Below are positions 1,721 through 28,911 of a stretch of DNA of 64,000 nt, one piece after another (position 1 is the first letter of the stretch; each line of letters begins with the position of its first letter). The translations under genes and the position numbers were made by a program. The stretch is from Agrypnia vestita. Taxonomy: Eukaryota > Arthropoda > Insecta > Trichoptera > Phryganeidae. Below the pieces are notes generated by a model, which was not told the origin of the DNA, made no database searches, and worked only from the letters and a program-made list of their open reading frames with translations. Location: positions 35,231 to 99,230 of the forward strand of contig JADDOH010004214.1 of the NCBI GenBank assembly GCA_016648135.1, given 5' to 3'.

Positions 1721-2228
1721 TCATAGAAGAGTGTTTGTCTGAAGAATGTTTCATAAAAGAGTTGATGTCTAAGAAACCGCAGACTCCTATGAAAAGTGAA
1801 AACTCTTCTGCCAGCTATAGGCTTCACTTCCATATATCAGTGTTGGTACCAGAATTCAGAAGTTAAATATTCCTACAACAATATGGCTGGCCACCGGCAG
1901 GTACATTCAGCAAATATTTCCTTCTTTTACGAAGACCGTCGTTGGCATTTCTCACCCAAACTATGAACGATGATGTATTATTAAATATGTCCAAGGGCTA
2001 ATGAGTCCAAAACAGAATACAGGCGGACCCCGACTTTCGAACATTCGAATTTCGCATAATTCGCACATTGTTGCGCTGTGGGGTAAAGATATCCCCCTCT
2101 CGCTCGCTCACAAGCAAGTGGAATTCTGGCATCACTTGCATCTTGCTTGCTCCCGTCACTTTGCTTGTGAGCTAGCTAGGATAGAGATTTAGTCTTGTGC
2201 AGGAAGGAAAGATAATAATTTACCATTT
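1721..2228. other. Unassigned sequence between transposon remnants
   Basis: A short open frame continues from the PLE terminal region to 1866, but I do not recognise its product. From 1870 to 2190 the sequence is of mixed composition with no gene structure that I can support. Confidence 0.4.
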
Positions 2229-2600
2229 AAAATATTATTAATCTTGGACAATGTTCCAGGACACCCAAAATCTCTACAGAATTTATACACGGAAATCAAT
2301 GTTGCGTTTATTCTTCCCAATACTACCTGCCTTATACAGCCTATGGACCAAACGGTGATAGATATGTTTAAACGATAATTATATGAGGTCAATAATGACT
2401 CAGGCTATCGAGGCAACTGACAGGCAAGGTGGGCCTACATTAAAAGATTTCTGAAAAAACTACAATATATGAAACGCAATAAACAGTATTGGAAACGCGT
2501 GAGACATATAGCTTGGGCTGACATAAGAGTCAACTATGTAAGGTACATGGAAACAAATTGTTTACATACTATATATAGATTATGGCAGGATGGACCAGAA
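2229..2600 (+). pseudogene. Tigger/pogo-type DDE transposase remnant
   Basis: From 2229 one frame reads KILLILDNVPGHPKSLQN, then FILPNTTCLIQPMDQTVIDMF. These are the second and third catalytic blocks of pogo/Tigger transposases (LDNxPGH and QPxDQ). The frame then meets stops and shifts near 2378, and weaker similarity (ATDRQGGPTLKDF) continues to about 2600. The N-terminal CENP-B-like DNA-binding part is absent. The protein is related to the better-preserved minus-strand transposase at 28194-28754 but is too diverged to be the same insertion. Confidence 0.75.
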
Positions 2601-3270
2601 AGATACATTAAACCATCTTCACATTCAGCCCACTTCCCTGGCAACTCCTGCCATTGCCACTCCCTTTACTAGGTTTTTGTGAAAAAGTCAAGATCTGACA
2701 GTACAGGCGTGAGTGTTTAGATTCTGCTCTCTCGCTCAGTCGCCGTCGAGCAGGTGAAGGAAAATATTAATTACTAATTCTATGTCCTCCATTGCCCAAG
2801 GTCTAATGCAAAGTATAGAGCAGCAATGTAAACACTCACTACCTTTGACGCCGCTACAGAGTATTTTGGGGAGTAACCACAAAGCACAAGGAGCAATGAC
2901 AATGACTGAATGTAAACAGGGGAGGTACAATATGAAATATAACGCATATATGCAAGGAGTGGAACGATACAAGCAAAGTCAGTTTTTATTCATTTTCCTT
3001 TTTAATTATTAAATATTTTATTAAATTTTTTAAATGTTTAACATACAAAATGCAAACTGACTAGTTACATGCGCTTCATTTTTTTTATATGATTTTATCA
3101 ATGCTTTAAAAGCCATGGCCGTGTTTACGCACCAAGCCATGTGCGTGATAACACTCTTTTCGATCTTGCGACAGAATTGAAAAGAATTTTCAATGTCGGT
3201 TACTTAAAGACATCATCTATTGGTGGACAATAATACCCAGGAAATTAGACACTTTAACCTTAAACAATTT
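2601..3270. other. Intergenic stretch, no gene recognised
   Basis: Short frames occur at 2736-3012 on both strands, without recognisable domains or splice support. Beyond 3000 the sequence is AT-rich and leads into the 3' flank of the minus-strand mRpL45 gene. Confidence 0.4.
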
Positions 3271-3272
3271 TT

Positions 3273-3278
3273 TTTATT
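3273..3278 (-). promoter_or_regulatory. Poly(A) signal of mRpL45
   Basis: AATAAA on the minus strand, about 45 bases past the mRpL45 stop codon, is the expected place for a cleavage and polyadenylation signal. Confidence 0.6.
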
Positions 3279-3321
3279 TGATATTTATATAAATATTTCT
3301 AAGTCTACTACAACAATATGA

Positions 3322-4511
3322 TTAGGCTACAGCAAGTGGTTTAGTATCAGAACCTTCAGGGGGCACAGCTAACGATTTTTCTTCCCTCTCCTTAGCGGCC
3401 TTCGACAACCCAACATCTACTGGCTCCTCGGCTCTAATGTAAGTGTGTGGCGAGGGTTCTACAGGCGGCATCCAATCTGGAATAATTTTAGAGTGCATCC
3501 TCCAAGTACCATACAAATTGGCTAAATGCTTTTCAAAAACCACGTACTCTAAAACATCTTTGGCTAGTATCTCACTCCCGTGCATTAGTCTCCCAAATCG
3601 ATCATATATAGCAAGCTGTTGTTGAGTGTGAAACCGAACGGTTACCTGACCATAGACATTCTCTTTTGAAATAACATGAGTGCACCGAGCATGCACGACT
3701 CTGGGAGGTTCCAAAGATTTCAGAAACTTCCAATGAATAGTTTTATCTTTCACATTAAACATAAGCTCAGGGTAACATTTTTCTGTGACCAATTCTCTAC
3801 ACTTATACTTATCTTTGGCAGCCATGTACGTATGGGCTTGGACATATATGTCTTGAGCGGTGTTAGCAAACACAGCAGGATTAAAATCCTCTTCGAATGA
3901 GCGAATCTTACGCACTGACATCATAGTTTTTGATTTCTTCTCCAACAATTGCAATTTCTGCTTGGCGCCTCCCCCAGTCACAATAGACAACTTTCCATCG
4001 CCTTCTGGTGGAATATACGCTTCAAAAACAACTCCCGTGCTAGCGATATAAAAAGTTCTCTCCACCCACGGTCTTGGGGGGACCATTCCCTGTTCTTTCA
4101 ATTTACTACGGATTTTTTCCTCACTCATATCCCTACCTATTTCTTCATTTTCCTCAAAATCGGGGAGATCTATTTTCATCACCTTTTCTCTACGTAATTT
4201 CTTGAACTTGGGGTTCCAATGTTTGGCGCGAGCATGCCGGACAGATTCTAACTGTGTTAAAGCTTGAATACTGGGACATAGTAAACCCAAATGCGGTAAC
4301 TATAACAAAACAAAACATTAATATAACAAAAATGGCATGAAACAATCCTTAAGAATGCTCCATAAAACAAAAATGACGGCTTTGCGAATTTTCTATACAA
4401 ATCTCAAATTTAATATACAAATTGTTAATCTTATTTTCATTATTAGCAAAACTAAATATTTTTTACCTTTAAAAAATTTATACCGGAGCGGCATGCTACA
4501 GAAGCAGCCAT
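3322..4511 (-). CDS. mRpL45: Mitochondrial large-subunit ribosomal protein L45 (mL45)
   Basis: This is a two-exon gene. Exon 1 (4511-4467) encodes MAASVACRSGINFLK and ends at a GTAAAA donor. The intron is 4466-4300. Exon 2 (4299-3322) starts after a TTATAG acceptor with LPHLGLLCPS and runs to a stop at 3322. The joined protein is 340 aa, near the insect family length. The N-terminus, with few acidic residues and a basic stretch, fits a mitochondrial targeting signal. The region ARAKHWNPKFKKLRREK precedes a Tim44/MBA1-like domain (roughly residues 150-310) with motifs such as IHWKFLKSLEPPRVVHAR and VTVRFHTQQ. By homology mL45 lies near the peptide exit of the mitoribosome and helps to dock it to the inner membrane. 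I chose the start because it is the only upstream ATG that splices in frame to the conserved part. No lesions were seen. Confidence 0.93.
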
Positions 4512-4611: not shown

Positions 4612-5113
4612 GGCCCGATAACGTGCCGATAACCACCGACAACGGCGTTAATATTTTTTCATTTGCTCTCCATCCATACCTCTCTATATTCGATCGGAAT
4701 ATGGTTAATCTGGCTCGTTCAATGATATCGTACAAATTTAAGCGTTTTAGCAGAATAAAAAAAGGTATTTTTGGCTGAAATTATTATGCAAAACTGAACT
4801 AATCTATTAACAAATAATTTCTTTGTTAAAGTCACTCATTTAATTCGAGCAGTTTTAGAGAAAAATACATATGAAAACAGGTTTATGAAAGGTAATGACT
4901 TGCAAGAAGATGTAATGAAATGTAAACGGATGGTTAAAAAATACTTAGGAAGAAAAGTACTTAAAAGGTAATTTATATTCGAAAATGGTACTGAATAATA
5001 TAATTATTGACGTAATTCTTCATGAAAACACAATATATTTCAATTTTACTAAACATTAAAAGCAAAATATGACAAAAATATTATGAACAAATACAAAAAA
5101 TAATCTAAATATG
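4612..5113. other. AT-rich flank upstream of mRpL45
   Basis: No open frame of note and no recognisable element were found. The part nearest 4612 would contain the mRpL45 promoter. Confidence 0.4.
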
Positions 5114-7319: not shown

Positions 7320-7620
7320 CAGTGATTCAATCTCACGGGAACTAAGAAATTGCTATAGATCCCTTATAAAGTTATAATTAACAACATTTTTGTAACTGAT
7401 TGGACAAATGTCATGCAAGAAAATGAAATTAATGACAATGCTCGGAATTAAAAAAAAATTTGATGCAATTATTCATTCAGAAATACGAAATATACAATCA
7501 AAGAAAAACACACCAAAAGTAAACCATGGATTACGAAGGAAATAATACGACTCATAGTAGTAAAAAAACAACTCAAAGTAAAAAAAACGACAATTCCAAG
7601 GAAGAATTTCTAAAACCAAA
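7320..7620 (+). pseudogene. LINE fragment (linker before the RT domain)
   Basis: Broken frames give IHSEIRNIQSK and then PWITKEIIRLI, a hallmark of the linker between endonuclease and RT in CR1/jockey-group LINEs. Several frameshifts are needed, and no RT motif follows. Confidence 0.45.
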
Positions 7621-9915: not shown

Positions 9916-12900
9916 ATGAGTCAGAAAACAGAAAAACCAGTACTATCAGGTCAACGCATCAAGACCAGAAAAAGAGGTATGAATTTTGACCTTTGATTAC
10001 TTTTCTTTTGTAATGCTTTCATGCGACCGTCTAACATGTGCTCAGAATGTGTATTCGAAACGGTTCAATCTATTTCAAATGCTTTTGCCAACAAACCTCA
10101 ATTTTGATTTACCCAAAGTTTGTGCACACATTCTTTTAATTAATAAAATTTTAAAAATAAGGTATGTGTTTACTTGCATATTTTAGTAGGATGTTCGAAT
10201 AGGAAGACACTAATACGCTATTATAAAATATAAATACATTTTCATAAGGAAATTTTGATTATTAGTATTGGATAATGTGCCCCAAATTTATTGTTGATTA
10301 ATAACCCTTGTTCTTGCAATTGTTTCATCACTGGCTTGATGTTGCAACATTTCAAATGTTTCGCAGCACGCATGCGGTGCAACTTATCACAACTTATAAA
10401 TTAATTGCTATTAGAACATTTCTTTAACAAGCATTTCGATTGGAAGGTAAGCAAAAAATATATAGAAAAGGTGCTTTGTCTTTCGAACTTTGTCGCTCAA
10501 TGTGAATTGCGCGGAGTGTTCAATGCGGTTAACAAAAATTAATTCAATTTGTTAGTGGAAGGCATCCGCGCAGTTTAATTAGAAACTATTAGCAATCTTA
10601 GAACAATATGTGTACACCTAACCCCGAATCGGGACATGTGATGGATACTTACAAGTATCAATCCAAACTACACAAATCAAGCACATTGCGAAACTATCAA
10701 ACAAATTCTCTATATAAAATAAATAAACATTATTGATTATTTGATGAAAATTGTTTTAATTTCAGTTTGCAGTTATTTTAACTCTACAAATTTATATATC
10801 AATAATCAATCATATTCGGTTAGTAGGTTATCTTTCCAGACTTTGCCCAGTTTCCTTAACTTTTGATATTATAGAAGAACTGTGAAAGTCCAACTGAATT
10901 TTTATTTTATTAATTTGTACAAAAGCTGGCAGCAGATAAATTATCACTTATAGTATTGAACGACAAAAGCATTGCCATCTACAAGTTATCAAAAGGTCAG
11001 CTCTGTGTCCCCATTCCTATACCCTGACTTGTCTGATTTACTAGTCTAGATGCATTATTCCACCTGGTCAAACTAAAATAAACACGCTCTATTAATTTAT
11101 AGTAAATTGCAACTGTAGGAAGCCCTTTACTATTTTTAATCCATCGTTAATTTTGGCGTATTACTTCTCTTTCGGGATTTATTCAAGAGTCACTCTTCCA
11201 TTTAAAGATCCTTCGTACCGTACACTTGTATATCATCAACACCATCGGCACTCTTGGCCCTACAACCCCTGGTGGGTCTCGGCCTACTCAAGAGTCTTCC
11301 TCCACTCATCTCGGTTTAGTGCCAGCTCTCCACTTCAGAAGCTCCAAGGCAATATGTCTTTGAGGACGTTGTCGCTCCATATTAATTTTGGTCTTCCTAA
11401 GCTTTTGTGTATATTTAAGCTAATTTTTTTTAAATTATTTTACCCACAATGACACCACTTTTAGCAGATTATCGTTTTTTGTAATACACTAAAAGAAGAA
11501 ATAAAAATATTCTTAATTTTGTGACAATTACAACTAGAAAATAAAAATAAAAATATTCCTCCCGTCATCTGTGCAAAGTCACATTTCAATCAATAAGCTG
11601 TAAAGAATGTATTTTCATATATTACAAGGTCTATAACATTTGACTTACTTACCATCACGCCGTTTCCTCATGGGGGTAAGCAGAGGGGATTCTTCTGTCC
11701 TGACATAAAACTCATCCACATACATAGATTTTCGCATGCAAACTCAATGGTTGTTGAGGCTTCTAACGGGACCATCTTCCAGTATCTGGATAATCTGGTC
11801 GTGCCACGTCTTCCACGGTCGGCCTCTCTTTCTGGCACCGTCAACACTCTTGTTATATATCTTACCATTCTTTCCTCATTCATTCAACATGCCCGAACCA
11901 CTTGAACGACCCTTTTTAAAAAATTTATTATGATAATACCTTACTCTTTCTATCACAATTCTTCCATAAAGTTTGCCAACCGAGCTTAAAAGACTGATTG
12001 CCCTGTAGTTCCTGCATTCCACTCTCGACCCTTTACCCATGTAGAGAGGCATATTAACTGCTCTCCTCCAGTCTAAAGGGGTGCAGCTCTCCTTCAAACA
12101 TTGATTAAGGAGTGCATGAAATCACGAAATTACTAATGGGCCACCAGCCTTGATATATAACATTTGAAAACCTAGAAAAATCACCTATCCAAAAAAACTT
12201 ATGCAATAAAAAAAAATAGCAAGCATTGTCCCGGTTGCTGGACATTTAGGAAAATGTAATTATCCATGTGACATGTATTCATGAGACCAGTTTTGCATTT
12301 CCACCAGATGAAAAGGAAAAATATGACCCCACGGGCTTCCGTGACCTCGTCATTGCTGGTCTCGATAAAGCGGGACACGATCCTGAGGCCATCTTCAAAT
12401 TCCTAGATGCCTTCGGGTCCAAGCAGGACTACCGGCGCTATGGAGAGGCGCTGTTTGATATTCTCATAGCTGGTGGACTGCTCGGTAAGTAGGCCTCACA
12501 TTTTATGCCATTCTTACCAAGTATGTACCCTTAGGGCCGGTTGTTTCAAGTTGGATTAAAGTAAGCATTCGTTTAAAGCATAGATTTTTACGTTCTCCAC
12601 CAATCAGATGATTCGTTTTCGTAAATATCTATGCTTTAAACGAACACTTATTTTAATCTAACTTGAAACAACCGGCCCTTAGTGCATTAGTTACATTATA
12701 ACACTTGTGACCATGCAACTCATTGTGTTAATATTTTGCAGATAATGATAAAATTATATAATTAAAATGATGAAAACAAGGCTAGAGTCCTGATATCATG
12801 ACGACACAACCTTTCGTTCGTTTTTTTCTGATCAATGTTCACTCAAATTTACAATATGATTCGAAAAGCTGTCGCCTTATTAGTATTTGTTTTATCCAAC

Positions 12901-15900
12901 AGTTCCGGGCGGATCTATTTCTCTAGATGGCGAGAAACCACACACAGACACCTGCATATTCTGCTCCAGTGCAGATATGGAGGCTATGCGTAATTTTGAA
13001 CAGGTGAGATATTTATTCCATACAGCTTCAACTATTAACTGTACGGGAATGGTAATATTCGACTGTACAGGCACTCAAATTAGAACTGGTTTCATAATTT
13101 GATGTGAAGCTAGTGTCCGTGATGTGCAATATAAATGCTGGAATATATCCTTTTAACTGTCTCTCTGTGGCATCTTGATTCCTAATGTTCCATACATTCA
13201 CTCAATATTGTCAGATTCTCCCCCATCCTGTGGTTCCAACATTACAATCCTGCTTCTTGCCTTTCAGGTTTTCATTAAAATGATGAGGCGGTACAAATAT
13301 TTAGAAAAAATGTTTGAAGATGAAATGAAGAAGGTCCTTGTATTTATCAAAGGGTTTGATCCCGAACAGAGGATTAAACTCGCTCGGATGACTGCACTAT
13401 GGATCGGTAAGATATACGACCCCCTTTTTGCTACCTTCCTTGGCTTGTGCGCTTAATTAGAACTGATTTGATATCTCGATTGTGGGATCAGTGTTGGAAA
13501 GTGCTAAATTAATTGTGGAACGATCCTACTGGTGATGACCCTTTGAATTCATTGGTTCCTAAAGTTCCACACATTGATTTCATTACAAATCACAACAAAT
13601 TTCATTTCATATAATATGCATTATTTATTAAAAAAAAATTATCATTCATTTAATTGTTAAATTTAAATACTGTTTGATTATTGCAGGAAATGGATCTGTA
13701 CCGCCCTCGGTGTTACTGGTGCTTATAAATGAGCATTTGATTAAGGATAATATGGCTTTAGATTTCCTTATTGAAGTGTTCACCACATATAAGCAGGAGA
13801 AGGGCATGTCTAGTTTAACCACTGCTCTGAAGAAGGGACAAATTGAAGGAAGGTGAGTTTAAAATCCACAATGTTCTCGTTTAGTCACGGGGACTGTTCC
13901 CATGGACATCTTTTCTCACTGAATTATTTGTTAATAGTGAGGCTTGAACTCGGGAGATAATAATATAGCCACCATACTGGCATTCATTTCCTTTTGCGGT
14001 GAATGTTATCAAGCGTGTGCTAATAATTATAAATATATTAATATTCAATTAGATAGGTAATAAATAAATAAAAATTATGGTACCTTAAATAAAATTAATG
14101 GTACCTTAAATAAAATTAATGTCAATTTTAAAAATCAGCACTATGTCAACAGATTTTGAGAGATTAGAGAAATCGTACTGAGTAATATGAATCACATCAA
14201 TTGTGAATCATTTTAAATTGCTTACTAGAAATTTCCAACTTATCATATTTCCTGGTATATATTATAGTGTAGATAAAGATACATATACATAATTCACATT
14301 AATTGGGCTCTGCACGATTCATAAATGATACACTAGAATAGTAGCAACTCTAATGCTTGTAATTTGAAATAATTGTCACCACTTGTATCTGAAAATACAA
14401 AACGACTTTCTCTAAATAAATCAATACATTTTGAGTTAATATTTTGTAACTTTTCACTCCAGCTCTTGGGTATATCGTTATGAAACTCTGACTATACCAA
14501 ATAGTCTTCATTCCTAATAAGGTTTTGTGCAGATTTGTTGCTGAGTATGAGAATTATTATATGAAATCATGTTTGTTTTCCATTCCAGATTAATGGAGTT
14601 TGTCCCCGCTAATAAACGAACAGAGGAATACTTCATAAACCTCTTCTCAGAAAAGGAGCTCGGCGACGTGGTGCGGCTCCATAAGGCTCAGGCCAGTCAA
14701 GAGGCTCGCCGAGACCTCACACAGGTAATAAGACATATCTGTGATAAAAGTTGCGTTGCACTTAATTAGAACTGGTTCAATATTTTGATTGTGGAACCAG
14801 TGTTGGAAAGTGCAATATTAAATGTGAAACAATCCTACTGATGATAACCTTTTGAAGTCATTGGTTCCTAACGTTTCAAACATTCCTTCTAATATTCAAA
14901 TTATTTTACATTCTCTGTCTTTAAAATTAAATGTATACTCACTTTTTATTCTTACACTTTATTTTTCAGATCCTTATGGATGACTTGGCTGATAATAAAC
15001 CTCTCCGAGAAACAATAACAGATCTTAAGGAGATGGCACAGAAGAGCAACATTCCTGAACACGAAATAGTTGCTGTGGTGCGTAAATTTTGTTACCCTTT
15101 TAGAAATGCAATCTAAAGATTAGTGATGAAATGATGAAACTGATGACGAGACTTAGTGGTTTACTGTAGTGCAAGGCCAGTTTTTCAACGAGTATTTTGT
15201 TGTTCTTCTGACTCTGTACGATATCAGTATTCTAACGCTGATGATTCGGCAGTCTGATCTCACTACAACTTAAGCAAATTTAAATTATCTACGATTATTC
15301 CGTTAAAAGGTATACTGCGCAGTTGTACAAATACAATAATGTGTGCTTTTAATTGTTGAAGATATGGACGACGGTAATGTCTGAGACAGAGTGGAACAAA
15401 AAAGAAGAATTGGTGGCGGAGCAAGCGGTGAAGCACCTGCGAGCCCTGACTCCGCTACTCGCGGCTTTCTGCAGTCAGCCCCGCTCTCAGCTGCAGCTAT
15501 TACTTAAAGTACAGGAATTCTGCTACCAAAACATGAACTTCATGAAGGCCTTCCAGAAGATTGTCGTATTGCTTTACAAGAGTAAGTTGTCTCATTTCTA
15601 TATATATCTTCGTATTAGCATTTTTTAATTGTCTCTATTTTTTTATAAAAGTTAATTTGTTATTATTTCTCAATTGTTTGTTTACTTATTTCACATATTT
15701 ACTTACTATTTATTGCTTGGGTGCACTTAATTAGAACTGGTTTAATATTTCAATTGTGGAACCTGTGTTGGAAAGTGCAATATTAAATATGGAACAATCC
15801 TACTAATGACGACCCTTTGAAATCATTGGTTCCTAACGTTTCAGACATTCCCAATTTTTATCACAAAATAAATCACTCGTTTAAAATAGAAAATAATGTC

Positions 15901-16401
15901 TAAATTAATGTTTCCAGCTGATGTAGTATCGGAGGAGGTCATACTGAAATGGTATAAGGAGGGACACTCTGCCAAAGGAAAGATGATGTTTGTGGAACAA
16001 ATGAAGAAATTTGTCGAGTGGCTCCAGAATGCAGAGGAAGGTAGGACCCAATTATTTATGCTTAAATATTGGTGCTGTGATTTTGACAATCTTTAATTCA
16101 CTTCTGAACCCTATGAATACAAAACTACATGTGTCGGTGCACAAAGTAGATTGTTGATACCAATTATGATGAAACGATGACGAGACTGAGTGGCGTGTGG
16201 TGTATCCTAAACACTTGCTTGTCAAGTTATTTGTCTGCAAACTGTTGGGCTGCAGTGCACGCTGGCGGTTATGATTCATGGCGTCTGAATTTTGGTTGAC
16301 CAAGTTGACAATGCAATTTCCAGATATTGTCAATTTTGAATTCAATATTAATGAAAATTATATTATTTTCAGAATCTGAGAGCGGAGAGGAAGAAGATTA
16401 A
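9916..16401 (+). CDS. kra: eIF5-mimic protein / BZW family (krasavietz), ten coding exons
   Basis: Coding exons are 9916-9976, 12308-12484, 12903-13003, 13268-13406, 13687-13852, 14589-14724, 14970-15077, 15362-15581, 15918-16040 and 16373-16401. All junctions have GT-AG and join in frame to 419 aa plus stop, the length of animal BZW2. The protein starts [24 protein letters not shown]-type helices follow ([37 protein letters not shown]). The C-terminal W2 domain (about residues 250-415) ends [19 protein letters not shown] with its aromatic/acidic boxes. By homology the protein binds eIF2 and eIF3, competes with eIF5, tightens start-codon choice and affects ATF4-type translation. The exon 8 donor was set at 15077/15078 because it keeps VAV-IWTTVM. 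At least six introns carry candidate small RNA genes, and introns 2 and 3 carry transposon fragments. Confidence 0.95.
11640..12110 (-). pseudogene. LINE fragments in kra intron 2
   Basis: On the minus strand an RT block ([29 protein letters not shown]; about 12097-11900) is followed directly by the C-terminal block (WKMVPLEAS, with frameshifts) down to 11640. The rest of the RT between them is missing, so this copy has an internal deletion. It belongs to the same family as 51595-51820 and is antisense to kra. Confidence 0.75.
12531..12681. repeat. PIF/Harbinger-like MITE in kra intron 3
   Basis: Inverted arms start GGGCCGGTTGTTTCAAG (12534) and end with the complement CTTGAAACAACCGGCCC (12678), flanked by TTA on both sides (12531-12533 and 12679-12681). 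A 3-bp TTA duplication and GGGCC ends are hallmarks of Harbinger-type MITEs. Relatives occur at 36926-37175. Confidence 0.82.
12763..12846 (+). ncRNA. Candidate box C/D snoRNA in kra intron 3
   Basis: Boxes occur in canonical order on the sense strand: C ATGATGA (12767-12773), D' CTGA (12790-12793), C' ATGACGA (12798-12804) and D CTGA (12838-12841). The spacing fits a guide of about 16 nt before D'. I see no clear terminal stem, and boxes this short can occur by chance in AT-rich introns. The case is strengthened by the neighbouring snoRNA-like elements in the same gene. Confidence 0.4.
13071..13199 (+). ncRNA. Candidate box H/ACA snoRNA, kra intron 4
   Basis: This is the most diverged of four related intronic elements. 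The outer stem is GCAC/GTGC. The inner stem ACTGGTTTCA/TGAAGCTAGT pairs over ten positions, counting G-U pairs. The H box is ATATAA. The second hairpin is closed by TGGAA/TTCCA, and ACA (13194-13196) is followed by three bases. The length of 129 nt matches the others (128 nt). By family knowledge such RNAs guide pseudouridylation of rRNA or snRNA with dyskerin. The guide loops differ somewhat from the other three, so the target may differ. Confidence 0.62.
13449..13576 (+). ncRNA. Candidate box H/ACA snoRNA, kra intron 5
   Basis: This 128-nt element has an outer stem GCGCTT/AAGTGC and inner stem ACTGAT/ATCAGT, where the intron 7 copy has ACTGGT/ACCAGT, a compensated change. The H box is AAATTA. 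The second hairpin is closed by TGGAAC/GTTCCA, again compensated against TGAAAC/GTTTCA in the intron 7 copy. ACA (13571-13573) stands three bases from the end. The pocket strands AATTAGA and GTTGGA are the same as in the intron 7 and 9 copies, so these three would guide the same site. Confidence 0.75.
14758..14885 (+). ncRNA. Candidate box H/ACA snoRNA, kra intron 7
   Basis: This copy is the best example of the group. The first hairpin is GCACTT-AATTAGA-ACTGGTTC, loop, then GAACCAGT-GTTGGA-AAGTGC: two stems around an internal loop like a pseudouridylation pocket. The hinge contains ATATTA, which fits the H box ANANNA. The second hairpin is closed by TGAAAC/GTTTCA with an inner AACC/GGTT stem. 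ACA (14880-14882) is exactly three bases before the end. It is 128 nt long and in the sense orientation, 33 bases after the donor of its 245-bp intron. Confidence 0.8.
15121..15265 (+). ncRNA. Candidate box C/D snoRNA, kra intron 8
   Basis: The possible terminal stem TAGTGA (15121-15126) and TCACTA (15260-15265) encloses C ATGATGA (15131-15137) and D CTGA (15254-15257). A C'-like CTGATGA lies near 15238-15244, and a degenerate D' (CTTA) follows the segment GATGACGAGA. That segment, the C box and the D box are shared with the intron 10 element. At 145 nt it is long for a C/D RNA. Conservation between two introns of one gene is the main support. Confidence 0.5.
15723..15850 (+). ncRNA. Candidate box H/ACA snoRNA, kra intron 9
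   Basis: This 128-nt element is over 80% identical to the intron 7 copy by eye. The outer stem GCACTT/AAGTGC, H box ATATTA, second-hairpin stem TGGAAC/GTTTCA (one G-U pair) and ACA (15845-15847) are all kept. The inner stem of hairpin 1 has one mismatch. The pocket strands match those of introns 5 and 7. Confidence 0.75.
16159..16296 (+). ncRNA. Candidate box C/D snoRNA, kra intron 10
   Basis: Terminal stem ACCAA (16159-16163) with TTGGT (16292-16296), C ATGATGA (16166-16172), D' CTGA (16186-16189) directly after the guide-like AACGATGACGAGA, a degenerate C' (TATGATT, near 16270), and D CTGA (16285-16288). The shared stretches with intron 8 are the boxes and the sequence before D', the parts expected to be conserved in a guide RNA. 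Confidence 0.5.
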
Positions 16402-25801: not shown

Positions 25802-28282
25802 CCCGCACTTGAATTTTGTTACAATTCGATTTCATATCGCCCTCGTCGAACTAGAGTTCCCGGAGAGGGTACAGTTCGTCGGAGGGGCTGGAACTTTGAT
25901 AAAGGTGACTTCGACAGACTGTACTCTCTTATGGACGCTACCGACTGGGGCGAGATGTATACCATATCGGATGTGAATGAGGCGGTACAATATTTTTATT
26001 ATACTGTCGAGGGTGTACTAGATTCCTGCTTCCCACGAAAATCTCAGGCTACCGGCGGAAGGCGATATCCGGAATGGTTTTCTAGGGATATTGTTAGGGA
26101 TATACGAACTAAACATTTCTATCATAAAAACTGGAAAGCCTTTGGCCGTCACAGCGATTATGAAATGTTTGGACATTACAGATCTATCGTAAGATGTAGC
26201 ATTCGATTGGCACACCGAGAGTTCATTGCCGGGATGGAAAACAATATCCTACAAGACCCTAATACGTTCTGGGCCTATATAAAATCCCAAAAAGCGGATG
26301 GTGGGAATATTGATTCCATGACTTGGGGCGAAAAAATGGTACGGGGTGCAGTATTGCCGAGGCGTTTGCAGGTCATTTTAAAACAGTCTATAGTAATGAA
26401 CCTCCGCTTCTCGATATTAATATTGCTAAAACATGTTCTCCGATCGGTGCACAGTCTATTGATGTTCAATATATCAATGAAAAGGATGTGGCCGACACTA
26501 TTAAAAATCTAAGTAATACCCATTCTCTTGGGCCAGATCTCATTCCAACATTCTTCTTAAAAGGCTGTGTGGAACTGATAAAAAAACCGCTATGTTTTTT
26601 GTTTAATCTTTCTGTAAATACAGGGGTCTTCCCGGAAACATGGAAGACGTCAAAAGTTACTCCCATACACAAGAGTGGTTCTAAGTTATCCGTAGAAAAT
26701 TATAGACCTGTAGCTCTCTGCACCAGCTAAGGTATTTGAAATTATAATAAGTAAAACCGTCGCTTCCCGAGTAGAGCCGTTTATAATTGATGAACAACAT
26801 GGATTCAGGAAGGGCCGCTCGGTTGAGACCAATCTGATGATTTTCACAAATTATGTCACGGAAGCTCTGGACGCGGGACATCAGGTAGACTGTTCATATA
26901 ATGACTTCGCCAAAGCCTTTGATACAGTCAACCATGATGTCTTATTGAAAAGGTTGTATGAGATTGGTTTCTCGGATGGTATGCTAAAATTTATGGCGAG
27001 CTACCTCCAAAATAGGAACCAATACATCTCCTACGGTCTATTCGCGTCAGAGTGCTTCTATACCTTCTCGGGTGTCCCGCAAGGATCTAACCTGGGTCCA
27101 TTGTTGTTCTCGATTTTTATCAATAATATAAAAAATGTAATTTTAAACTCGCGCTTTCTGTTATTTGCGGATGACTTAAAGCTTTTCTTAAAGGTGTCAA
27201 CTTTGGACGATTTTCATCTTCTCCAAACAGATATATCAAATATATGTGAATGGGGAAGACGAAATAAACTTTTGTTTAATGTTTCCAAGTGTTCGGTTAC
27301 ATCCTTCACTAGGGCCCAAAAAACTCTATTTTTTCGCTACAAAATGAACGACCAAAATCTGACAAGAACATCGAATGTTAAAGATCTAGGTGTTAAATTT
27401 GTAAGCAGCCTGACATTTCATGATCACATAGAGACGATCAGTGGTAATGCTCTGAGAATGTTAGGATTTGTTCTGCGTACTGCCAGGGTTTTCGAGAATA
27501 CCCGCGTACTGAGAACTCTTTACAACTCCTTGGTGCGGAGTAGACTCGAGAGTGGCTCGATGATCTGGGGGCCACATGAGGGCAAGTACTCTCTTATGGT
27601 GGAGAAAGTCCAAAAGAAGTTTCTGAGATATCTCTACATGAGAGAGTACGGGCATTATCCTTGGCTTTACCCAACCGAGTTTCTCCAGGGTATGCTTGGC
27701 TACAATAGTTTAGAGACTAGAAGGAATGTGTATTTGATTACACACTTTTATCGATTGTTGCGCGGTATGATCGACAATACTGAAATTATGCAGAGCATTG
27801 GTTTGTATGTTCCTGATAATTACCTTAGACATCGTCAGCATAGATTGTTTCACATTCCAATATACAGGACCAACCTGCCGATGGTTATGCCTGTTGGAAA
27901 AGCTACAGCTATGCTGAACAAGATCGCTTTGGATATTGATATATTCCATGTGTCTGAGGGGGTTTTCCGAAGCAGGATTCTCCTACACCTTTGACCAGAT
28001 TCTCCTACACCTTTGACCAGACAGGTCACTTTTAATTGTTTAATAATTGTTTAATAATAAATTAGTATTTTAATACACAATATGTATATGTGTGTGTATG
28101 TATGTATGTATATGTATATGTGTATGTATGTATACATATGTGTTTATGTATATGTGTATATGGATGTGTATGTATATGTGTATATGTATATTTTTAGATG
28201 TAAGTTAATAATATGTATGCATTGAACATAATGTTTGTAATGTACATATTATGTAATAAATAAAAATTGAAATTGAAATTGA
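25802..28282 (+). mobile_element. CR1/jockey-group LINE inserted in the Tigger element
   Basis: The LINE is 5'-truncated. A linker (WNFDKGDFDRLYSLMDATDW, YPEWFSRDIVRDIRTK) leads to RT blocks: SLGPDLIPTFFLK, VTPIHKSGSK, ENYRPVAL, DFAKAFDTVNHDVLLKRL, FSGVPQGSNLGPLLFS and the catalytic LLFADDLKLF near 27160-27180. The last frame (26837-27994, 385 aa) is intact. Frameshifts lie near 26335 and 26730. The 3' end is attgaaattgaaattg. Imperfect flanking aatat..ccat on both sides may be the target duplication. This clade moves by target-primed reverse transcription. Confidence 0.88.
28079..28196. repeat. TATG/TGTA-rich microsatellite in the LINE 3' UTR
   Basis: Repeated tatgtatatgtgtatg-type units fill about 115 bp between the LINE stop codon and its 3' end. 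Confidence 0.85.
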
Positions 28283-28911
28283 AAATATCCATGTCATTAA
28301 AGCCTTCTACTCCAATACCGCGACAAATATTTATTGTCCTTTGGTATTCGTCTTCTATTGGTGGTAAAACATTTTCTCCGGAGACTACTTCTGGCCACAG
28401 CTTTTTCCAACAAGAATTTAAAGTTGATTGTTTTATTTCTTTAGCGGATGCAGAAACAATATCGATACGATTTTGAATAGAAAATTTTTTCCTTACTTGT
28501 GGAAGTGTTAAATATTCACTTTGATCGATGTCTTCTACTATTTTTTCAAATATTCGACGAGTGTAATAAGCTTTAAATGTTGAAATTATACCTTGGTCTA
28601 AGGGCTGGATTATAAATGTAGTGTTAGGCGGTAAAAATAATATTTCAACATTAGGATGTTTTAAATCTTGCGGATGTCCTGGCGCATTGTCCAATATTAA
28701 TAAAATTTTAAAATCAAGATTCTTGTTCTTCATATAATCTCTTGCATCTTGCATTGTAAAACCAATCTTTAAAAATAATACATATTTAATTCATTTATTT
28801 TTCTGAAACCGTGTTATAAAAAGAATGTTGTACAAAAAATATGTCAATTTATACATCTGTGTTATATAAAATAGTGTTATATAAAACCATGTTATACGAG
28901 GCCCAAGTGTA

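Follow-up and report, generated by a model that had tools for sequence, protein, structure and literature searches.

The window, that is, the whole 64-kb stretch of Agrypnia vestita DNA analyzed here, carries the 3' part of a gene of the kra/5MP (BZW-like) type. The exons of this gene were joined and compared with Pfam, and the product matched the HEAT_5MP1_2 and W2 families (304.7 and 92.3 bits, respectively). We lettered the kra introns a to h, from 12485 on, so that a-h span 12485 to 16372. Four elements of similar sequence, E1 to E4, lie within these introns. The host gene and the elements are as follows.

12310..16401, + strand: host gene kra/5MP (BZW-like), 3' part; exon limits set by eye on the basis of frame and splice signals, identity from Pfam
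12310-12484, 12903-13003, 13268-13406, 13687-13852, 14589-14724, 14970-15077, 15362-15581, 15918-16040, 16373-16401, + strand: kra exons
13071..13199, + strand: E1, box H/ACA snoRNA candidate that has diverged from the other copies; H box ATATAA at 13129-13134, ACA at 13194-13196
13449..13576, + strand: E2, box H/ACA snoRNA candidate; H box AAATTA at 13506-13511, ACA at 13571-13573
14758..14885, + strand: E3, box H/ACA snoRNA candidate; H box ATATTA at 14815-14820, ACA at 14880-14882
15723..15850, + strand: E4, box H/ACA snoRNA candidate; H box ATATTA at 15780-15785, ACA at 15845-15847

Each intron concerned holds one element: E1 lies in 13004-13267, E2 in 13407-13686, E3 in 14725-14969 and E4 in 15582-15917, an intron whose donor GT starts at 15582. 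E1, E2, E3 and E4 stop 68, 110, 84 and 67 nt short of the 3' splice site, respectively. A first-pass annotation of this DNA had placed four elements in four different kra introns. Its positions, lengths and common strand are those found here, where the elements measure 128-130 nt, and the introns are indeed separate ones of a gene with the two Pfam domains named above. It had numbered the introns 4, 5, 7 and 9; the order is right (they are b, c, e and g in our lettering), whereas the numbers themselves presuppose one 5' UTR exon. Long open reading frames farther along the window, at 26714-27994 and 28194-28790, look by eye like those of a putative reverse transcriptase and a putative DDE transposase.

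We compared the four copies with each other and with the rest of the genome. The gapless identity was 0.907 between E3 and E4, and 0.837 for both E2/E3 and E2/E4. In these three gapless copies the identity ends at the element ends, and the 60-nt flanks of E2-E4 were 0.20-0.43 identical. By BLAST, E1 was 71-72% identical to E3 and E4 and gave two short matching pieces only with E2. The copies form a divergence series in which E3 and E4 are close, E2 is intermediate and E1 is far. Three of the four elements, E1, E2 and E3, served as queries for DNA searches in the home genome, which comprises 1.32 Gb in 19,947 contigs. E3 and E2 gave three matches each and E1 gave one; very common words were skipped in these searches, and the counts are lower bounds. 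All matches were kra copies, and no copy outside kra was found with these queries in the 1.32 Gb, again as a lower-bound count. The first-pass annotation had raised copies dispersed outside kra as the mark of a SINE, and the searches with E1-E3 returned none.

The consensus structure of the four elements was calculated with RNAalifold. It has the canonical order of hairpin, H box, hairpin and ACA, with 31 pairs. Paired cells amounted to 95.9% in the consensus fold and to 33-43% once the 3' partners were slid. The H box motif ANANNA lies in the hinge of all four elements (ATATAA, AAATTA, ATATTA and ATATTA), and ACA followed by three bases (TTC or TTG) stands at the end of similarity in 4/4, the ends being read from the sequence alone. 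In H/ACA RNAs, some 13-16 nt separate the open pocket from the box H or ACA below it. Here the H box lies 13-14 nt below pocket 1 and the ACA 14 nt below pocket 2, in every copy. The two-hairpin H/ACA form, recognized by eye before, is thus borne out by the consensus fold, the H box, the ACA plus three nucleotides and the spacing in 4/4.

Three pairs were changed on both sides (columns 20/42, 73/123 and 85/111). Column 20/42 goes from G-C to A-U in E2, and column 73/123 shows G-C, A-U and G-U. Two compensated stems had been reported earlier (ACTGGT/ACCAGT against ACTGAT/ATCAGT, and TGAAAC/GTTTCA against TGGAAC/GTTCCA); both are real, and the pair 85/111 is added as a third. Among 500 shuffle controls, the number of doubly changed pairs was reached by 13 and the covariation score by nine. 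Further pair types showed no excess over the shuffles (198/500 reach the same number). The covariation is modest because four sequences are few. Variable columns made up 2/26 in the pockets against 26/129 overall (P 0.06), which is suggestive of fewer changes in the pockets than elsewhere.

The single folds were also compared with shuffled sequences. The z values of E1, E2 and E3 were −2.96, −2.91 and −3.64, respectively. The plain fold of E4 was ordinary (z −0.99; 31/200 shuffles as good), and the upper stem of this element has one broken pair. Hairpin 1 of E2-E4 has its pocket closed by additional weak pairs in the minimum-energy folds.

We scanned both strands of the 64-kb window with a family-blind H/ACA descriptor, which combined ANANNA and ACA at H/ACA spacing, two hairpins, a pocket held open and a folding-energy score; its spacing settings are the usual ones for H/ACA RNAs and were fixed after the elements were known. 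The scan gave eight non-overlapping matches, and the first four ranks were taken by E2 (−33.1), E1 (−32.6), E3 (−31.8) and E4 (−24.1). The fifth match scored −16.9, and the best score among six dinucleotide-shuffled windows was −17.8. Chance folding is rejected by this control, with the elements at −24.1 or lower. A comparison of the fold scores with shuffled sequence had been proposed in the first-pass annotation, and all four elements beat the best shuffled window, including E4 with its ordinary single fold. A stricter earlier descriptor, which relied on unconstrained minimum-energy folds, gave three matches with E1 at the top and missed E2, E3 and E4.

A covariance model, R1, was built from E1-E4 and by construction recovers all four (E1 with 108.9 bits). 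Besides these, it found in the window one weak candidate at 13897-14028 and three matches at chance level (E 2.7-7.9). No Rfam family reached its cut-off at the elements. The best was SNORA62/SNORA6 at E2, and assignment to this named H/ACA family was rejected with 20.7 bits against a gathering score of 80. Over the whole window, nothing except a tRNA was above the Rfam cut-off.

The guide strands of the two pockets are given below for E3.

14764..14770, + strand: pocket 1 of E3, left guide strand, AATTAGA; shared with E2 and E4 and found in E1 too
14802..14807, + strand: pocket 1 of E3, right guide strand, GTTGGA; shared with E2 and E4 but not with E1
14831..14836, + strand: pocket 2 of E3, left guide strand, AATCCT; ATCCT is common to the four elements
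14866..14872, + strand: pocket 2 of E3, right guide strand, TCCTAAC; TCCTAA is common to the four elements

The strands AATTAGA and GTTGGA had been described as unchanged in three copies, and they are identical in E2-E4. In E1, AATTAGA is kept and the right strand reads GTCCGTG. Targets were predicted on the insect's own rDNA, contig L010, in which 18S lies at 1803-3742 and 5.8S at 4073-4234; 28S starts at 4636 and runs off the contig at 7500. The scan covered the 1059 U positions of the L010 rRNA stretches, which take in 18S, 5.8S and the 5' two thirds of 28S. Strings of 28S for both target sites discussed below are given in PMC11331408 and PMC5327576.

Pocket 1 of E2, E3 and E4 had its best site in 28S at L010:7288, UCCGAC[ΨG]UCUAAUUAA, with 9+6 bp. 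This position is the U within CCGACUGUCUAAUU. The energy was −21.5 kcal/mol for all three elements and that of the runner-up was −11.1. For E3, none of 4000 shuffled targets and two of 4000 permuted guides were as good. E1 has the same best site with 7+3 bp and −13.3, a value inside the null (median −9.2, 1% point −17.7, 300 shuffles). The first-pass annotation had derived UCCAAC-NN-UCUAAUU as the target of this hairpin. This prediction was near-exact: the insect's own 28S reads UCCGAC-UG-UCUAAUU, and the single difference gives a U-G pair. By eye, UCUAAUU occurs also in CAUCUAAUUAG of 28S, and this copy was rejected as a partner of AATTAGA because the base at the Ψ position would be C.

We located the site relative to modifications known in yeast. 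The table of PMC8307265 gives snR3 as the guide of yeast 25S Ψ2133 and marks this position H; helix 69 modifications, which bear this mark, are called conserved in humans in the same paper. With a register shift of 519, all of the 12 listed yeast positions from 2191 to 2288 fell on the right base in the insect 28S, and the listed positions 2129, 2133 and 2142 did not fit. A shift of 520 places 2133 on the target U and m1A2142 on A. The two shifts therefore imply a one-base insertion/deletion between 2142 and 2191, and under the shift of 520 the target U of pocket 1 corresponds to yeast 25S Ψ2133. Yeast Ψ2129, which is not marked H, is C in the insect 28S. The equivalent of yeast Ψ2264 was a weak match for pocket 1 (−8.0, 3+3 bp). 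Judged by its predicted pairing, pocket 1 most likely has its target at a long-conserved Ψ site.

The best site of pocket 2 was the same in all four elements, namely 28S L010:7022, GGGA[ΨA]AGGAUUG (the U within GGGAUAAGGAUUGG). The energies there were −19.7 for E3 and E4, −19.4 for E2 and −16.7 for E1; E3 and E4 come near the 1% point of the null, and E2 and E1 fall short of it. For E3, 38/4000 shuffled targets and 16/4000 permuted guides were as good. The next-best site was one in 18S, at −16.1 to −17.4. The table of PMC8307265 lists no modification between 25S-1888 and 2129, so the site of pocket 2 is without a listed yeast counterpart. Pocket 2 may guide a second Ψ of 28S at this predicted site.

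The search for rDNA brought up several other sequences. L001 (CASBQJ010000122.1) and L002 (IMGVR_UViG_3300007304_000150) hold short 28S pieces only. L001, filed as a cyanobacterial MAG, consists of about 4 kb of other sequence between terminal pieces of eukaryotic 28S; to judge by eye, its interior is probably a contaminating rDNA-inserted retroelement. L002, an IMG/VR contig, begins with a 186-nt eukaryotic 28S match. In home-genome contig C19136 (L011, minus strand), about 4.5 kb lie between 28S pieces that are ~70 nt apart in L010, an R2-like position. The same contig has unrelated sequence after CTGTCCCTATCTA, an R1-like position at which contig L010 also ends; the names R2-like and R1-like were chosen from position only. 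Another home-genome contig, C11092, contains several scattered short 28S fragments in changed order, which are perhaps rDNA pseudogene pieces between mobile elements.

The last eight introns of kra were inspected for other snoRNAs, and four further candidates were noted.

12767..12831, + strand: weaker box C/D candidate, intron a; 10-bp D' complementarity to own 18S
13897..14028, + strand: weak fifth H/ACA-like candidate, intron d; ATA instead of ACA, different family
15131..15257, + strand: box C/D candidate, intron f; C ATGATGA at 15131, D CTGA at 15254, D' guide GATGACGAG, degenerate D' CTTA
16166..16288, + strand: box C/D candidate, intron h; C ATGATGA at 16166, D' CTGA at 16186, D CTGA at 16285, D' guide GATGACGAG

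All three C/D candidates scored below the Rfam cut-offs: that of intron f matched snoZ5 with 33.1 bits (cut-off 60), that of intron h SNORD15 with 25 bits (cut-off 75) and that of intron a snR56 with 24.1 bits (cut-off 54). The D' guide GATGACGAG of f and h forms 9 bp with the own 28S at 2804-2812 and points at G2807 (L010:7442, the G of CUCGUCAUC). This G is the equivalent of yeast Gm2288, which stands in the table of PMC8307265 with snR75 and the mark H. By eye, short stems adjoin boxes C and D of both elements, namely TAGTGA/TCACTA in f and ACCAA/TTGGT in h. BLAST found a 29-nt match at 93% between the two elements. They share the C box and the guide GATGACGAG and little else, and therefore look like a second, older paralog pair in kra. 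A home-genome search with the intron h element returned itself only.

The intron a candidate has C, D' and D boxes, and its 10 bp of perfect pairing is with own 18S ACTCTAGCCT. The same intron contains, at ~12532-12680, a long inverted repeat with ends GGGCCGGTTGTTTCAAGTT and AACTTGAAACAACCGGCCC by eye; it is MITE-like and has a weak MIR7502 match below the cut-off.

The candidate in intron d, at 13897-14028, is the weak one found by R1 (26.3 bits, E 0.001), and the match is one of structure only. Its z value was −2.00 (5/200 shuffles as good), and the L010 rRNA scan gave it no convincing target. As a fifth H/ACA copy it stays weak, given the ATA tail, this z value and a target that does not stand out.

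When the weak ones are included, all eight introns from 12485 to 16372 hold a candidate; six of them (b, c, e, f, g and h) are well supported. With C/D candidates in the neighboring introns, kra therefore looks like a broader snoRNA host.

We consider it highly probable, from the sequence as a whole, that E1-E4 are box H/ACA snoRNA genes of one family that were duplicated within kra and are predicted guides for 28S. They had been read before as intronic H/ACA guide copies that arose by local duplication, and this reading is supported by the boxes, the spacing, the fold, the descriptor, the genome searches with E1-E3 that returned kra copies only, and the target match. To it can now be added that E1 is diverged and has a weaker guide, that pocket 2 has a less certain 28S site of its own, and that C/D candidates lie in the neighboring introns.

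The elements would be transcribed together with the kra pre-mRNA and released after splicing and debranching of the introns. As established snoRNA biology suggests, they would be bound by the H/ACA core proteins dyskerin, Nop10, Nhp2 and Gar1 and trimmed to their folded ends, with ACA plus three bases. Pocket 1 would pair with 28S at UCCGAC[ΨG]UCUAAUUAA and direct the pseudouridylation of the U equivalent to yeast Ψ2133, and pocket 2 may be responsible for another Ψ of 28S, at GGGA[ΨA]AGGAUUG. The four copies may raise the dose of one guide. The diverged E1 may guide less well, or it may be in the course of being lost.

The last point leads to a different view of the family, in which the H/ACA genes are decaying: one or two still function, and the rest, E1 foremost, have become pseudogenes. 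In E1, little remains of the pocket 1 right guide strand and some of the pocket 2 pairing is gone, and E4 has the broken upper-stem pair and the ordinary plain fold. However, the H box, the ACA, the spacing, AATTAGA and TCCTAA are kept in all four, and E1 was second of eight in the family-blind scan. We regard such decay as rather unlikely. It is still less likely that the H/ACA RNAs act on another RNA (the 28S 3' third, an snRNA or an mRNA) or act without modification. The target scan covered 18S, 5.8S and the 5' two thirds of 28S, and PMC8522698 reports that some guides with good pairing fail on natural rRNA, so that predicted pairing is not proof of activity. Against this, 0/4000 shuffled targets equaled the E3 pocket 1 match, which falls on a yeast-modified position marked H (PMC8307265). 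A dispersed short repeat (SINE or MITE) with four copies by chance in kra introns would account for four similar intron units of 128-130 nt and for the unrelated flanks of E2-E4, but it is rejected as scarcely credible: the genome searches with E1, E2 and E3 matched kra copies only (lower-bound counts) and the elements are therefore no SINE, and in addition all four lie on the same strand, their ends coincide with ACA plus 3 nt, their stems are compensated and their guide match to rRNA scores high.

Starting again from H/ACA guide genes duplicated within kra, a wider proposal can be made. In this insect lineage, the gene may have become a ribosome-modification host: each of the last eight introns would carry one guide, and the levels of two conserved 28S modifications would thereby be coupled to a translation-factor gene. 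Pocket 2 may add a Ψ at GGGAΨAAGG. The eight would comprise four Ψ2133 H/ACA guides, two C/D guides for the Gm2288 site and, in addition, one guide each of the C/D and H/ACA kinds. Taken jointly, these parts make a tentative proposal, possible and on balance doubtful.

The divergence of E1-E4 offers a natural series for how guides duplicate and keep or lose their guide strands. A four-copy H/ACA family also gives a concrete predicted target at a deeply conserved Ψ. Should all of introns a-h be confirmed, kra would rank as a protein-coding gene densely packed with snoRNAs.

We compared this arrangement with systems already known. A search of open-licence literature brought up no paper that describes kra or BZW1 as a host of snoRNAs. 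The word 'kra' is absent from the main text of PMC13228274, which deals with fly snoRNAs, and no insect snoRNA catalogue was found by title in a search with a silkworm term. Yeast snR3, the guide of 25S Ψ2133, is alike in that the equivalent U is the predicted target of pocket 1 (PMC8307265). The same source lists snR3 also for Ψ2264, where pocket 1 is weak; the likeness drawn here is one of target position.

For the candidates in introns h and f, Rfam SNORD15 (U15) and snoZ5 are similar in the C box and the D' guide GATGACGAG, but the scores of both are under the family cut-offs (25 against 75 for h and 33.1 against 60 for f). In Drosophila, the intronic cluster of mfl (dyskerin) consists of the H/ACA snoH1, four C/D DmSnR60 isoforms and two snm60 copies, as described in PMC1821038. 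Like kra, mfl has one ncRNA per intron of a ribosome-related gene and duplicated guide isoforms (PMC1821038). However, the multiplied guide of mfl is a box C/D RNA at variable 3' UTRs, whereas that of kra is a box H/ACA RNA between coding exons. Cis-duplicated snoRNA paralogs of chicken and other vertebrates also lie in different introns of one host and have kept their guide regions (PMC2653536). The difference is that about 90% of the chicken H/ACA snoRNAs are single-copy (PMC2653536), whereas the kra family has four copies. The arrangement is thus a familiar one, and what is new here is a well-formed example in kra rather than a new kind of system.
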